A DNA stretch of 64,000 nt from Aquabacterium sp. (GTDB taxonomy: Bacteria; Pseudomonadota; Gammaproteobacteria; Burkholderiales; Burkholderiaceae_C). Numbering within the stretch: position 1 is the stretch's first letter; each line of letters opens with the position of its first letter. Of the stretch, positions 29,490 through 36,843 are shown in pieces. The stretch spans positions 62,001 to 126,000 of the forward strand of contig NZ_JAQSDR010000008.1 in NCBI RefSeq assembly GCF_029946005.1. The letters run 5' to 3'. A program made the translations under genes and the position numbers. The notes beneath the pieces were generated by a model. It had not been told where the DNA came from, did no database searches, and saw only the letters and a list, made by a program, of their open reading frames with translations.

Positions 29490-30899
29490 TCAGCGTTGTT
29501 CCACCATGTCGGCCACAGCCTCGAACACCAGCGCCCGCGCCTGGTCTTTTTCAAACGACACGCCCATGCGCAACACCACCAGGTCATGGCTGGGCACGAT
29601 CACCAGGAACTGGCCCATGTGTCCCGCGAACCAGACCAGGTCGGCAGGCAGGCGGGCACGGACGGCATCGGGGATCGCCGTGGCGGGCTGGCGCCAGATG
29701 AAGCCGCCGTACTCGGCGCTGGCCGGTGAAGGCGCCACCAGGAACTTCATCACCTCGGGCGCGATCAGCGTCTGGCCCTGCCACTGCCCACCTTGTGCCA
29801 CCAACTGCCCCAGCCGCAACCAGTCCACGGGGCGCAGCACGCCACGCGCGCCGCCCACGGGTGTACCGCTGGCGTCGGGCTCGATCACGCCCTGTCGGAT
29901 GCCCAGTGGCGCGAACAAGCGCTGCTGGTAGTAGTCGTAGAGCGCTTGGTGGCTGCCGCCAAGCGCCTGCTTCATGGCATAGGTGGCCACGGTGGCAAAG
30001 CCCGTGGAGTAGTTGAAGACGGTGCCCGGGGTGGCCGTCAGGGGCCGTTCTGCTGCCCACGCTCCTTGGTTGGGCTGAGAGAACAGCATCTCGGTGGCAT
30101 CGCTGGCGCCGTCATAGCCTTCGCTCCAGGCCATGCCCGGGGCCATGTTGAGCAACTGCTTCCAGGTGATGGCGGCCTTGGCGCTGCCAGCCCACTGGGT
30201 CAGGCCCACGGGGGTGTCCAGGTTCAATCGGCCATCGGTGGCCATCACTCCCGCAATCAGACCTGTGAGCGACTTGGTCATGGACCAACCCAGTTGGGGC
30301 TGATCACGTTGGTAGTCCCTCGCATAGCGTTCGTACACCAGGTGGCCATCGCGCGCCACGAGGAAGGCCAAGGCGTTTTGTTTTTGGCTGAGCTTGGTGG
30401 TGGCCTCGGTGAAGATGCGGTCGCCATGGGTGGCCAGCAAGGCAGCCTGTGCCGGTGTGAGCCGCGCCGCTTCGGTGGGGCCTTCGCCAGCAGGCCATGA
30501 CTGCACAGAGGGCTGCGGCAGGACCACCGGTTTGAAGGCCTGGGCGCGCACGCCCGCTTCGGTGGCGCCGGGGGGCACGAGCGTGCAGCCCAGGCCCTCG
30601 CGGTAAATGGCGGTGCGTTTGTGGGTGATGAAGGGGATGAAGCTGCTCACGTCCACCTTGCTGCCAGGGGTGTACTTGATGGTCCACACAATGGGCAAGG
30701 GTTGGACCTTGGGCGCGGTGTAAGACCAGCGCACGCGCAGGTAGTCGTCACCGCTTTGCTGGGTGCGTGTGCACAACTCCCAGGCGGCATAACCAGTGCC
30801 TGCGGGGATGTCGGCGATGAGATCGGCCTGTGCGGCTTGGGTGCTCAGCAAACTCAGGCAGGCCAGCGATGCCGCCCTCCAAGTGGTGTGGCGGATCAT
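29490..30899 (-). CDS. Exported serine hydrolase, class C beta-lactamase/NylB-like
   Basis: 469 residues with a Sec signal peptide ending near STQAAQA. A roughly 150-residue N-terminal region of unknown type precedes the beta-lactamase fold. Catalytic SxxK is WSMTKSLTG and the tyrosine motif is VFNYSTGFATV. FVWFAGHMGQF-like sequence near the end supplies the family's third motif region. Likely an ester or amide hydrolase in the periplasm. It is translated behind a TetR gene with an ATGA overlap, so the pair forms a regulator-enzyme unit. Confidence 0.85.
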   Translation of the reverse strand: MIRHTTWRAASLACLSLLSTQAAQADLIADIPAGTGYAAWELCTRTQQSGDDYLRVRWSYTAPKVQPLPIVWTIKYTPGSKVDVSSFIPFITHKRTAIYREGLGCTLVPPGATEAGVRAQAFKPVVLPQPSVQSWPAGEGPTEAARLTPAQAALLATHGDRIFTEATTKLSQKQNALAFLVARDGHLVYERYARDYQRDQPQLGWSMTKSLTGLIAGVMATDGRLNLDTPVGLTQWAGSAKAAITWKQLLNMAPGMAWSEGYDGASDATEMLFSQPNQGAWAAERPLTATPGTVFNYSTGFATVATYAMKQALGGSHQALYDYYQQRLFAPLGIRQGVIEPDASGTPVGGARGVLRPVDWLRLGQLVAQGGQWQGQTLIAPEVMKFLVAPSPASAEYGGFIWRQPATAIPDAVRARLPADLVWFAGHMGQFLVIVPSHDLVVLRMGVSFEKDQARALVFEAVADMVEQR

Positions 30900-31498
30900 G
30901 GTGTGGTCTCCTGATGGGGTTGTCGAATCAATTGGGCGTAATGCTTGATGGCCTGGGTGGTGCCGACCTTGTCGCCCGTGGTCAGCAGGTCAAGCAGCAG
31001 GCCGCGCACGATGGCCAGTTCAAGACGGGCGCGAGTGCGGGCCTTGGCCTTGCTCAAACCGTGCTGGGTTTGCAGAGACCGGGCCACGCGGCCGATCCAG
31101 CCGTCAACGGCTTGCGCCAAGAAGTCGCCGAAGCGTTGCCGGTCGCGCAGGGCCTTGACGTAGATCTCGAGCATCAACTGGAACACGGGCAGGTAGCTTG
31201 GCGAAGTGAAGTGCTGCCAGACCTCTTCGATGGGCGGCACCGTGAACGCCTGGCCTTGGGCCATGCCGGCCTGCCGGTGTTGATCCGTGTTGCGCAGGTG
31301 CTCGACCACGGCCTCCCAGAAGCCGTCCACATCGCCAAAGTAGTAGCTGAGCATGCGGTGGCTGGTGCCCAGGCTGGTGGCCATGCTCCGCAGTGATTGG
31401 TCGCTGTAGCCATGGGTCAAGACATGCGCGATGGCCTGATCCAGCAAGGTGGTGGCTTGATCGGAGGTGGCGCGTGAATGGGGGCGGGCGTTTGGCAC
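30896..31498 (-). CDS. TetR family transcriptional regulator
   Basis: 200 residues. The HTH is seen in AIAHVLTHGYSDQSLRSMAT and LGTSHRMLSYYFG. The ligand domain is of the TetR_C type with a LMLEIYVKALRDR helix. The stop overlaps the serine-hydrolase start by four bases (ATGA), and a 14-base inverted repeat lies 10 bases upstream of its start codon, which suggests self-repression together with the hydrolase. The inducer is unknown. Confidence 0.88.
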   Translation of the reverse strand: MPNARPHSRATSDQATTLLDQAIAHVLTHGYSDQSLRSMATSLGTSHRMLSYYFGDVDGFWEAVVEHLRNTDQHRQAGMAQGQAFTVPPIEEVWQHFTSPSYLPVFQLMLEIYVKALRDRQRFGDFLAQAVDGWIGRVARSLQTQHGLSKAKARTRARLELAIVRGLLLDLLTTGDKVGTTQAIKHYAQLIRQPHQETTP

Positions 31499-31507
31499 GC
31501 AGACAAC

Positions 31508-31521
31508 GTACCAAGTGGTAC
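31508..31521. promoter_or_regulatory. Probable TetR operator
   Basis: GTACCAAGTGGTAC is a perfect inverted repeat with 6-base arms and a 2-base centre. It sits 10 bases upstream of the TetR start at 31498, where a bound repressor would block transcription of the TetR gene and the serine hydrolase behind it. Confidence 0.55.
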
Positions 31522-31555
31522 ATTTCTTGGGCAGCCGTGCTTTCCCCAGTGCCAG

Positions 31556-32272
31556 TCAGGTCTGCGCGAACGGATTGGCGGGTAGCTCGATGTGTGGAAG
31601 CGGGCGGCGCGCGATGTCTTGCGCTTCTTCGGTGCTCAAGCCCAGCACGGTCAGCAAGATGGCCGCGATGCGTTCGGACAAGGTGGTTTCATCGCCAAAG
31701 AGGTCCGGCGCGGCTTCGGGACCAGGGCGGCCTGCGTCTGACACCGCCGCCAAGGCACCCAGGATGGTGCTGCCCACCGCGATGTAGACCGAAGGCAGGT
31801 CTGCCACGGTGAATCGACCTGAAGACACGCCTTTGCCGATGTCTTGCAGCAGGTACTTGCCCAGGCCGGTGGTCATGCTGTCGCGGCTGAAGCTGGTTTG
31901 AAAAACAAACCGCCCCCACAGCGGGTCAGCGCGCCCGCGCAGCATTGTGTAGCGGGCGGACGCGGCGATTTTTTCAGCCGGATCGCTCAGTTGCTCGCCC
32001 AGTTTGTCCAGCGCCACCGCGAAGTGCCCGATGACCTCTTCGATGAGGGCGGCGTGGATCACGTCCTTGGAGGCGAAGTGGTTGTAGAACGAGCCGAACC
32101 CGACATCCGCCTGTTCGGTGATCTCGTTGATCGTGACCCCGGCCACCCCTCGATCGGCCATCAAGTGCAAGGCGGCCCCCAGCAAACGGGCCCGGGTGTC
32201 GCGCTTGCGCCTGGCGCCGCGGGGGGCTTTCTCGGTGGTCGGCATGGGGACATCGGCGGCTTTCATGAGCAT
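31556..32272 (-). CDS. TetR/AcrR family transcriptional regulator
   Basis: 238 residues from ATG 32272; further ATGs at 32266 and 32245 are possible. A basic N-terminal tail (APRGARRKRDTRARLL) leads into the HTH (ALHLMADRGVAGVTINEITE, ADVGFGSFYNHF). Divergent from the phytanoyl-CoA dioxygenase-like gene, with about 120 bases between that contain two repeated TGAT-N6-ATCA sites. It probably controls that gene and the exported hydrolases behind it. Confidence 0.88.
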   Translation of the reverse strand: MLMKAADVPMPTTEKAPRGARRKRDTRARLLGAALHLMADRGVAGVTINEITEQADVGFGSFYNHFASKDVIHAALIEEVIGHFAVALDKLGEQLSDPAEKIAASARYTMLRGRADPLWGRFVFQTSFSRDSMTTGLGKYLLQDIGKGVSSGRFTVADLPSVYIAVGSTILGALAAVSDAGRPGPEAAPDLFGDETTLSERIAAILLTVLGLSTEEAQDIARRPLPHIELPANPFAQT

Positions 32273-32343
32273 GAGCCTACCACCCAGCCTGAGCGCGCTG
32301 GGGCTGCGACCAGCCATCGGGTATACCCCATGATGTGCAACTA

Positions 32344-32375
32344 TGATCAATAAATCATAATTGATAAATTAATCA
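32344..32375. promoter_or_regulatory. Tandem AT-rich inverted repeats, probable TetR operator
   Basis: Two copies of TGAT-N6-ATCA: TGATCAATAAATCA at 32344-32357 and TGATAAATTAATCA at 32362-32375, 18 bases apart. The block is much more AT-rich than its surroundings and ends 17 bases before the start codon of the dioxygenase gene. A promoter could overlap it. Confidence 0.45.
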
Positions 32376-34453: not shown

Positions 34454-34636
34454 CCATGCCAGGTCGGCCACCTGCACCACGACTCATCGCCAGCGTGTTG
34501 TTGTTCGTTAAATGATAAATCACCGGGTAAGTCCGCGCCGACAAAGCCAATGATTGGCCGGTTCGGCCCATGCGGCCATGGCAACGGGGACCTAGCATTC
34601 GGGCAACTCAATCTGCCCGTGAACGCAAGGTCAACC

Positions 34637-35512
34637 ATGAACACCTCTCGCCAATTTTTCTGCGCCCTGATGCTGTCGGCATGCGCACTGCTGAGCACCC
34701 AGGCGCAGGCCGTCGGGTATGAACGCGGCCCCGACCCCACGGCTGCATTGCTGAATGCCACCGGCCCCTATGCCGTGAGCGCCTACAAGATCTCCAAGGC
34801 GGATGCCAAGAGCCACAACTACGGTGGCGCCACGGTGTACTACCCGAATGCACCTGGCCAGACCTTCGGTGTGGTGGCCATGATGCCCGGCTTCCTCGCC
34901 TTCCAGGCGGTCTATGAAACGCTGGTGAAGAAGGTCGCGTCTCACGGATTTGTGGTGATCAACCTGGACAGCGTGGCGAGTGCCGACCAGCCCGATACCC
35001 GCGCCCTTGCCGTGGCCGGTGGGCTGCAGCACGTGGTCGAACTGGCTCAGGAAGGGCAGGTGCCCTACGCCGCCGTGACCGATGTGACGCGCCGCGCGGT
35101 GATGGGCAACTCCATGGGCGGCGGGGCGGTGCTCAGCGCCGCAGTGGCCGACAAGACGCTCAAGGCCGTGGTGGCGCTTCAACCATGGCACACCACCAAA
35201 AGCTTTGGCGGCGTGGCGAGTCCAACATTGATCGTGGCCTGTGAGAAAGACACCATCGCGGCGAACAAGTCCCACTCGGACCTGTTTTATGCCAGCTTGA
35301 ATCCTCTGCTGCCACGCGCCGAAATCGAGGTCAGAGGTGCCAGCCATCTGTGTTCTACCTTCCTTGCGAGCAAGGCTCAGTTGACGACCGCTGGCAAGGC
35401 CTCGGTGGCCTGGCTCAAGCGGTTTTTAGACGACGACATGCGCTATGACGCCATGGTCAAAGGCGGGATCAATGAAGGTGAGTTCAGCCGCTTTGTGGTC
35501 CAAGGCTTTTGA
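34637..35512 (+). CDS. PET-hydrolase/cutinase-like polyester hydrolase homologue
   Basis: 291 residues from ATG 34637 (AAGG upstream). Signal peptide about 1-25. The mature part starts YERGPDPTAALL and follows Ideonella PETase almost position by position: oxyanion segment PGFLAFQ (84-90), catalytic Ser159 in GNSMGG, Trp184, Asp205 in VACEKD, His237 in GASHLC, and the Cys202/Cys239 pair equivalent to PETase Cys203/Cys239. Differences: Asn158 where PETase has Trp159, Phe86 for Tyr87, Leu238 for Ser238, and no second disulfide pair near the C-terminus. It is an exported alpha/beta hydrolase; activity on plastics cannot be inferred. Confidence 0.88.
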   Translation: MNTSRQFFCALMLSACALLSTQAQAVGYERGPDPTAALLNATGPYAVSAYKISKADAKSHNYGGATVYYPNAPGQTFGVVAMMPGFLAFQAVYETLVKKVASHGFVVINLDSVASADQPDTRALAVAGGLQHVVELAQEGQVPYAAVTDVTRRAVMGNSMGGGAVLSAAVADKTLKAVVALQPWHTTKSFGGVASPTLIVACEKDTIAANKSHSDLFYASLNPLLPRAEIEVRGASHLCSTFLASKAQLTTAGKASVAWLKRFLDDDMRYDAMVKGGINEGEFSRFVVQGF

Positions 35513-35619: not shown

Positions 35620-36843
35620 ATGAATCGAACTGTAAAACGCCTGACCTCCATCGCAGGCCTCGCCTGCGCGGGTGCACTGTCCATGACGAGCCTGGTCCAG
35701 GCCCAGCAGGTCTATCCCACGGTGGATGCCAAGCTCAAGCCCACCGCTGACGCCTTCTACACCTCGCCCACCAGTGCAGAGTTGGCCGCCCAGGCTCCTG
35801 GCAACGTGCTGCGCTACCGCGCACTGCCTGCCGCTTCTCTGGGCACCAGCCTCAAGGAAGGCTGGCAGCTGATGTACCGCTCGACGAACACCAAGGACCA
35901 GCCCGTGGCCATGGTGACCACGATCCTGATCCCCAAGGCCGCGCCTGCCACCGGTCGCAAGTTGCTGTCTTACCAATCGTTCTACGACAGCCTCACGCTG
36001 GACTGCTCGCCTTCGGGCCAGGCCACGTCCAACACCCTGCTGGAAAAGACCTTCTTCCAGTCGGCGCTGAACAAGGGCTACGTCGTGACCATGGCCGACT
36101 ATGAAGGCCTTGAGTCGCAGTGGATCGTCGCCAAGAACAGCGGCCAGGGCGTGCTCGACGGCATCCGTGCCACATTGAAGTTCCCCAAGAGCGGCCTGAA
36201 TGCGTCGACGCCTGTGGGCATGTTGGGTTACTCTGGCGGCGGTTTTGCTACGGCTTGGGCCGCTGAACTGGCCAATGGTTATGCGCCCGATCTGAAGATC
36301 ATCGGTGCGGCCCAAGGCGGCTTGCCCGTCAACCCCATCAACGTGGCCAAGAAGGTTGACGGCACGTTCTGGGCTGGTGCTTACCTGGGTGCAGTCGTGG
36401 GCTTGTCACGCGGCTACCCCGAGATCAAGGTCGAGGACTACGCCACCCCAGTGGGCATCGAGGCCATCAAGGACATTGGCACACGCTGCCTGACCGGTTC
36501 GCCCAATCTGCTGACGGCCTACGCCTACAAGAAGGGTTCTGACCTGTTGAAGGATCCCAACTTCTTGAACCTGCCCCTGATGCAGGCCATCAACCGTGAA
36601 AACACCATGGGCCAGTACGCACCCAAAATCCCACTGCACATCTTTGAAAGCGTCGGCGATCAACTGATGCCCATTGCGGACGTTGACAACTTGGTGGCCT
36701 ACTACTGCGCCAATGGGGCCAAGGTGCAATACAAGCCTGTCTCTGGCACCGACCACGTGCTCGGCGCCTTGGGCTTGAGCGGTGGTTTGAACTACCTGCT
36801 GGACCGTTTCGACGGCAAGGTGGCGCCGAACAACTGCAAGTAA
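35620..36843 (+). CDS. Secretory lipase family protein
   Basis: 407 residues with a strong ribosome-binding site (AAAGGAAC) and a Sec signal peptide ending near SLVQAQQ. The nucleophile elbow is GMLGYSGGGFATAW, the acid is in ESVGDQLMPIADV and the His in VSGTDHVLGALG, as in the secretory (LIP-type) lipases. It hydrolyses esters outside the cytoplasm. It follows the PETase-like gene by 107 bases on the same strand and is closed by a hairpin at 36861-36888. Confidence 0.88.
   Translation: MNRTVKRLTSIAGLACAGALSMTSLVQAQQVYPTVDAKLKPTADAFYTSPTSAELAAQAPGNVLRYRALPAASLGTSLKEGWQLMYRSTNTKDQPVAMVTTILIPKAAPATGRKLLSYQSFYDSLTLDCSPSGQATSNTLLEKTFFQSALNKGYVVTMADYEGLESQWIVAKNSGQGVLDGIRATLKFPKSGLNASTPVGMLGYSGGGFATAWAAELANGYAPDLKIIGAAQGGLPVNPINVAKKVDGTFWAGAYLGAVVGLSRGYPEIKVEDYATPVGIEAIKDIGTRCLTGSPNLLTAYAYKKGSDLLKDPNFLNLPLMQAINRENTMGQYAPKIPLHIFESVGDQLMPIADVDNLVAYYCANGAKVQYKPVSGTDHVLGALGLSGGLNYLLDRFDGKVAPNNCK

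Follow-up and report, generated by a model that had tools for sequence, protein, structure and literature searches.

The window analysed here, a stretch of 64,000 nucleotides from an Aquabacterium sp. genome, carries a gene for an alpha/beta hydrolase of the PETase family, probably secreted, and a neighbouring secretory lipase gene; their features are collected in Table 1. The longest frame that can be drawn mechanically could begin at 34550, but the ATG at 34637 provides an N-terminus which, judged by eye, looks like a signal peptide (MNTSRQFFCALMLSACALLSTQAQA / VGYERG), and four homologues (L023-L026) align with it from residue 1 in tblastn. A scan for sigma-70-like promoters found none around the gene. 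Anchoring as a lipoprotein through the string LSAC, at residues 13-16, was considered and discarded: the Cys is missing in three relatives (L025, L027 and L028) and lies one column off in a fourth (L026).

Table 1. Features of the hydrolase gene and its downstream neighbour (positions in the window; residue names refer to the window protein)
Feature	Position	Strand	Basis
Alpha/beta hydrolase of 291 aa, PETase family (PF12740); probably secreted	34637..35512	+	ORF, Pfam, AlphaFold2, Foldseek
AAGG, possible ribosome-binding site, 6 bases 5' of the ATG	34627..34630	+	read from sequence
Signal-peptide-like N-terminus, residues 1-25, ending in AQA	34637..34711	+	by eye; pLDDT low at 21-25
Phe86 (= PETase Tyr87, aromatic clamp/oxyanion; PHL7 likewise Phe)	34892..34894	+	alignment
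Asn158 (codon AAC), preceding Ser159 (= PETase Trp159; His in LCC and PHL7)	35108..35110	+	alignment
Ser159, catalytic nucleophile, GNSMGG	35111..35113	+	alignment
Trp184 (= PETase Trp185)	35186..35188	+	alignment
Cys202 (= PETase Cys203)	35240..35242	+	alignment
Asp205, catalytic acid	35249..35251	+	alignment
Ser236; Asp in each of the 15 His-type rows within the 22-row clade	35342..35344	+	alignment
His237, catalytic base	35345..35347	+	alignment
Leu238 (= PETase Ser238, PHL7 Leu210)	35348..35350	+	alignment; PMC10076380 (excerpt)
Cys239 (= PETase Cys239), sole possible disulfide partner of Cys202	35351..35353	+	alignment
Extended loop segment His237-Trp259, 23 residues	35345..35413	+	alignment
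Phe242, all 7 Asn-type rows (Ser/Asn in the three of His type in the 10-row clade)	35360..35362	+	alignment
Secretory lipase (PF03583), downstream neighbour	35620..36843	+	Pfam; in 2/9 relatives' flanks

The assignment to the PETase/cutinase family, already made in the first-pass annotation, is borne out by Pfam, where PF12740 matches residues 23-281 with 239.1 bits (E 7e-71), far above its gathering cut-off of 28. Kinship with dienelactone hydrolases, which had been named as the finding that would speak against this assignment, was not seen, PF01738 giving no match at E<=0.001; the tree described below is no test of such a placement, because it holds only homologues and no outgroup of that kind. 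The name BHET hydrolase is not earned, because the score against the NCBIfam equivalog NF051441 (BdeA), 222.8 bits, lies under its cut-off of 520. Among the best 60 of 182 PDB matches by sequence, PHL7/PES-H1 entries come first (1.5e-60), with cutinases and PETases behind them.

Structure modelling, one of the checks proposed beforehand, gave a concordant result. An AlphaFold2 model built on an alignment of 51 rows (pLDDT 92.1, pTM 0.88) superposes on IsPETase, the top Foldseek match (5xg0_B; TMt 0.93, rmsd 1.6 A, identity 38%), as well as on PHL7 (7nei_A; TMt 0.93, rmsd 1.5 A, identity 43%), and places Ser159 between strand 148-158 and helix 160-171, in the usual nucleophile elbow.

Alignment with IsPETase reproduces every residue named in the first-pass annotation. 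Ser160, Asp206, His237, Trp185, Cys203 and Cys239 of IsPETase correspond to Ser159, Asp205, His237, Trp184, Cys202 and Cys239, giving a complete catalytic triad in register, which is invariant across the 51 aligned rows; Trp159 is replaced by Asn158, Ser238 by Leu238, Cys273 by Lys275 and Cys289 by a gap, so that the second, C-terminal disulfide is indeed absent. Subsite I is conserved (Phe86, Met160, Trp184, Ile207). The Ser214/Ile218 pair of IsPETase, said to allow Trp185 to wobble (PMC10080609, as for all papers cited here by PMC number, in excerpt), reads His213/Phe217, the common state, found in 60 of 76 rows. The substitution of Leu for Ser238 is real, but it is not peculiar to this protein, because PHL7 (L210) and 21 of the 22 rows of the clade described below also carry Leu, the remaining row having Met. 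To call the protein a position-by-position follower of the Ideonella enzyme was too strong, since identity is 38% and PHL7/PES-H1 is nearer by sequence.

The protein does not fit the types into which PET hydrolases have been divided. Type I, as defined by Joo (2018), has His159, Phe/Tyr238, only the C-terminal disulfide and no extended loop; here Asn158, Leu238 and Lys275/gap are found, and the segment from His237 to Trp259, with 23 residues, is longer than in IsPETase (21) or in LCC, TfCut and PHL7 (18). The extended loop of type II is thus present, as is its Cys203/Cys239 pair, in the form of Cys202/Cys239, the only two Cys beyond residue 25, whose bond itself is putative; its second disulfide (Cys273/Cys289) is not, nor is Trp159 combined with Phe/Tyr (IIa) or Ser (IIb) at 238. 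By alignment, the protein therefore has one half of the features that define type II and lacks the other, and it departs from type I as well. Type III PETases (HaloPETase1) resemble it in standing outside types I and II, but they have a GHSQG box, other disulfides and no aromatic clamp (excerpt of PMC12442448), in contrast to the GNSMG and the retained Phe86/Trp184 of the window protein. The presence of the Cys203/Cys239 pair in the absence of Cys273/Cys289 is shared by 15 of 76 rows, all from Aquabacterium, namely those of the 10-row clade and of the 4-row clade sister to it, together with L089; the C-terminal Cys of PHL7 were left uncounted, because its row is truncated at that end.

Individual enzymes show comparable mixtures of likeness and difference. 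PHL7/PES-H1 shares the Phe at the position equivalent to 87, the Leu at 238 and an LQPWH motif, but has His before the Ser, the shorter loop, and not the Cys202/Cys239 of the window protein. IsPETase, of type IIb, shares the triad, Trp185, Met161, Ile208, Cys203/Cys239 and the extended loop, two residues longer in the window protein, but differs in Trp159, Ser238, Ser214/Ile218 and Cys273/Cys289. Within the genus, a lipase of Aquabacterium parvum, the subject of work by Ho et al. (2023), is reportedly a close relative of IsPETase, as its title has it; on that title alone, it resembles the window protein in genus and family. The better described Dh5 (MBI3384080.1), also from Aquabacterium, has the Leu at the 238 position and the extended loop, but His before the Ser and Met at the fifth position of subsite II, and was earlier reported as standing outside the type I/II scheme (excerpt of PMC10547765). 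The paralogue L088, likely of the same kind as Dh5 to judge from the shared T/A/H/L/M residue pattern, differs from the window protein, to which it is 39% identical, in having the Cys of both disulfides. The Bacteroidetes enzymes PET27 and PET30 share a single disulfide, an unusual Cys position and the extended loop, but have Trp and Ser in subsite II, and Mipa-P and Kubu-P are also described as lacking the type I His/Phe (excerpt of PMC11219463).

Placement in a tree of PET hydrolases and cutinases had also been proposed, and it yields a clade made of Aquabacterium only, which fits neither type I, IIa nor IIb. In a maximum-likelihood tree of 76 rows, midpoint-rooted for drawing only, the window protein is nested in clades of 7, 10 and 22 rows (each 100/99) and in a wider group of 28 (99/96), all restricted to this genus, while IsPETase, RgPETase and BurPL with their near-copies, as well as LCC, TfCut and PHL7, lie elsewhere. 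A version of 61 rows contains the same three clades, with the 28-row split at 92/93, and omission of columns 159, 236 and 242 leaves them in place, each at 100/99. Orthology to IsPETase was accordingly rejected, the window protein belonging to a 28-row group separate (99/96) from the IsPETase, RgPETase and BurPL rows, and the close kinship with that enzyme suggested at first is not supported: besides the separate grouping, W159, S238, S214/I218 and the C-terminal disulfide are all missing.

Before rows were counted, a copy 100% identical to IsPETase (L014) was removed, together with rows representing the same genes or duplicates (L005-L010, equal to L023-L028, L051, L004, L113, L114, L116 and L119), fragments (L040, L100, L112, L109b and L115b) and weak matches (L016-L020 and L052-L080). 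Three proteins which have lost Ser and His (L044, L045 and L098) were excluded from tree building and from all counts over 76 rows, but enter a 79-row count. For the relatives, a script took as start codon whichever ATG lay closest to the position expected.

The family is common within the genus: at E<=0.001, 28 of 42 Aquabacterium genomes contain between one and five copies, and the 4.5-Mb genome of the window has four. Across the taxonomic family, 13 of 399 genomes match at E<=1e-10, four of which belong to the genus of the window, and across the class 3 of 369, the window's own genome included. An order-wide search with PF12740 brought 66 of 399 genomes over the cut-off, but its rows were not used, because the best score outside the window's genome was about 46 bits. 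Spread of the gene by viruses or plasmids was considered and is not supported, the scan of viral contigs having found no relative and the five plasmid matches all being below 60% identity. Two remote GNSMGG pattern matches from GTDB (L011 and L012) were set aside, since by eye they look like other proteins, with long frames.

The residue preceding the nucleophile is His in 45 of the 76 intact rows, Trp in 21, Phe in 2, Tyr in 1 and Asn in 7, and the Asn rows are exactly the 7-row clade (7/7 inside, 0/69 among other intact rows). The first reading of this Asn as unusual is upheld: none of the 7 reference enzymes has it, nor, in the 76 rows, has any relative outside this one subclade, and within the genomes searchable the variant appears confined to Aquabacterium. 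Searches of the open-licence literature by combinations of terms found no report of an Asn-type PETase.

One alternative account of Asn158 is neutral drift from His to Asn (CAC to AAC) of no functional weight. The codon is indeed AAC or AAT in Asn rows as against CAC or CAT in three His relatives, a change of one base, and the tree asks for a single event. Descent at one place is further indicated because two His-type loci (L122 and L123) share flanking frames with two Asn-type ones (L129 and L130), which we take to be orthologues; the frames flanking these four, common to all of them, are other than those at the window. The Asn is, however, kept in every one of the 7 genomes, even where identity falls to 64-65%, in a protein under purifying selection, since five pairs from the Asn clade gave omega values of 0.105-0.240 and one His-type pair a value of 0.263, and it is accompanied by fixed changes at ten other aligned positions: residues invariant in the 7 Asn rows and absent, gaps aside, from the 3 His rows are found at 45, 97, 132, 158, 164, 167, 180, 182, 228, 242 and 282. 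Drift of this kind is, in our judgement, rather unlikely.

Within the 22-row clade, position 236, which precedes the catalytic His, is Asp in 15 of 15 His rows, and Ser (3) or Gly (4) in the Asn rows; at position 242 all 7 Asn rows have Phe, while the remaining 15 rows have Gln, Ser, Ile, Asp or Asn. The coupling of 159, 236 and 242 counts as one event and is given no statistic, because all changes fall on one branch, and outside the 22-row clade the link is loose: over all 76 rows, Asp236 accompanies His in 23 of 45 (it is absent in 22) and Trp in 13 of 21. A 2025 machine-learning survey gives these positions a context (excerpt of PMC12455559): 94% of active PET hydrolases have a His next to the Ser, Asp stands beside the catalytic His in 80% of acid-tolerant and 13% of neutral enzymes, and in acid-tolerant enzymes the predicted pKa of the His next to the Ser is elevated, the link of residue 236 with pH being a correlation. 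In that paper, positions 300 and 383 are described as "downstream" of Ser301 and His384; the numbering is followed here, by which they precede them. The Asn clade may thus have given up a His/Asp coupling of use on the acid side.

On these grounds we regard the window protein as probably a functional, secreted carboxylester hydrolase of the serine type, belonging to the polyesterase/cutinase family PF12740, with an ordinary mechanism and a second shell rebuilt in its subclade. Catalysis would proceed through Ser159, His237 and Asp205, with Phe86 and Trp184 as the clamp, in an Aquabacterium-specific lineage in which the active-site Cys pair is present and the C-terminal pair absent. The rebuilding of the second shell comprises the replacement of His by Asn before the Ser, of Asp by Ser or Gly before the catalytic His, and of Ser/Asn by Phe at 242, in the enlarged loop; its likely effect is an altered pH profile and a changed shape of subsite II, rather than loss of catalysis. 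Aliphatic polyesters, cutin-like material or lipids are the likely substrates, PET being at most a side substrate. Against this reading, a non-aromatic residue at 159 could be damaging, because IsPETase W159A kept 8% of its BHET activity (excerpt of PMC5785972), and the single-branch origin of the 159/236/242 changes and the prevalence of His beside the Ser in active enzymes also count. Family membership, the predicted fold, the residues, the clade, the fixation of Asn158 and purifying selection are established here; secretion, activity, substrate, formation of the disulfide and the consequences of the second-shell changes are predictions for this protein, which we do not present as a plastic-degrading enzyme.

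A further alternative is an esterase acting on small esters, either soluble or lipid, which has abandoned polyesters and in which Asn158 marks the loss of the polymer subsite. The aromatic or His wall at 159 is lost. Moreover, the family drifts in function within Aquabacterium, since active-site residues have been lost both in rows with a GHSAGG box, which lack Trp185 and Met161 (L081, L013, L033, L034, L002b and L087), and in the lineage of L044, L045 and L098, which lacks both Ser and His. We nevertheless hold this alternative to be doubtful, as Trp184, Met160 and Phe86 are retained, along with the active-site Cys pair, in 7 of 7 Asn rows.

At the opposite end, the protein might be a genuine PET hydrolase, a mesophilic PETase in which Asn158, Leu238 and the long loop open subsite II. 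The conserved subsite I is consistent with this, as are the active-site Cys pair and extended loop, which are type II-like, and the Leu238 shared with PHL7, where L210 is described as the main contributor to high PET activity (excerpt of PMC10076380). Dh5 degraded PCL and PET powder (excerpt of PMC10547765), so that Aquabacterium does make active polyesterases, which also speaks for the carboxylester hydrolase preferred above. Against such a role, W159/S238 and S214/I218 are absent, and the C-terminal motif DxDxR(Y)xxFxC, the M5-PETase motif of enzymes active in a marine study (as read from an excerpt of PMC12224614), is replaced by DDDMRYDAMVK; this failure is weak evidence, because 39 of 75 rows fail the regular expression, BurPL_7cwq among them (the PHL7 row is excluded from this count). 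The genomic context points the same way. For MHETase, which marks PET-assimilating organisms of the I. sakaiensis type and which we take to be of the tannase family (PF07519), no genome out of nine from Aquabacterium has a match over the cut-off: one (G218) shows a weak match of 20.9 bits, below 29.8, and the window's own genome none at all, whereas 3 of 3 genomes with IsPETase-type genes are positive, with 4-8 matches each. We hold a genuine PET hydrolase to be quite unlikely. Because up to five copies occur per genome and none of the nine has a tannase-family match over the cut-off, a PETase-like sequence in Burkholderiales, our data suggest, need not mean PET degradation.

Returning to the carboxylester hydrolase with a rebuilt second shell, it is conceivable, as a tentative idea that is more likely wrong than right, that the Asn subclade represents a further natural type of the PETase fold, in which the His/Asp charge pair, found in all 15 other members of the parent clade, has been removed and Phe242 gained in an enlarged loop with a single disulfide. 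Were this so, the nucleophile would no longer be coupled to a titratable residue next to it, the loop would take over the aromatic wall of subsite II, and pH range and substrate would differ from those of types I-III. Engineering of PET hydrolases has often targeted the residue that precedes the nucleophile (159 in IsPETase), for which the cited excerpts name His and Trp in the known types. A naturally fixed Asn, with syntenic His-type relatives, would offer a ready evolutionary comparison for the effects of residue 159 and Asp236 on pH range and subsite II.

The adjacency of a secretory lipase, noted at first, is real, but it is a local feature, present in 2 of 9 relatives' flanks, those of the closest relatives only. 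As a mark of a polyester operon it was rejected, since only two relatives of 89% identity have it within about 7 kb on each side. On the other side of the gene, a block at 29490-32350 of the window, ending 2.3 kb upstream, contains a beta-lactamase-family (PF00144) protein and two adjacent frames, of which Pfam identifies one as a TetR-type regulator, the other being TetR-like by weak NCBIfam matches only; it is conserved in one relative (L125).

Some further family members deserve mention. L044 1450-2541 (-), L045 763-2313 (+) and L098 3-1034 (+), from three Aquabacterium genomes, encode PF12740 proteins (Pfam: L045 and L098) in which the nucleophile is gone (GHGTGQ, GHGAGQ and GQGAGQ, respectively), as is the catalytic His, while all four Cys are kept, a lineage of dead PETases; the L045 frame has an N-terminal extension of about 250 residues with no Pfam match. 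The GHSAGG box without Trp at the Trp185 site defines two Aquabacterium paralogue groups (L002 581-1441 (-), L087, L081, L013, L033 and L034), the residue there being Ala, or, by alignment, Ala or Val in L002b and L087; in L002 the GHSAGG copy adjoins a GHSMGG copy with Trp, as a tandem pair.

A near-IsPETase (282 of 290 residues identical) is encoded on the Piscinibacter gummiphilus plasmid NZ_CP136337.1 at 162405-163277 (L101 2923-3792). It carries the S214/I218 pair, described in the excerpts as unique to IsPETase; its locus is 99.3% identical in DNA to that of IsPETase (L014) over 3.46 kb, with two IS1071 transposase genes no more than 10 kb away. An identical stretch of 3.76 kb (L119) is present in genome G1133, which has in addition a 95.5% copy with H214/F218 on a different contig (L118); a 97.9% copy with H214/F218 is found in genome G1004 (L117 1435-2304). 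Mobile DNA may thus have been where the S214/I218 pair originated, or the means of its spread. Besides these IsPETase-like genes, G1004 and G1133 contain tandem pairs of homologues (L106 and L107) with GHSMGG and Phe-Phe after the catalytic His.
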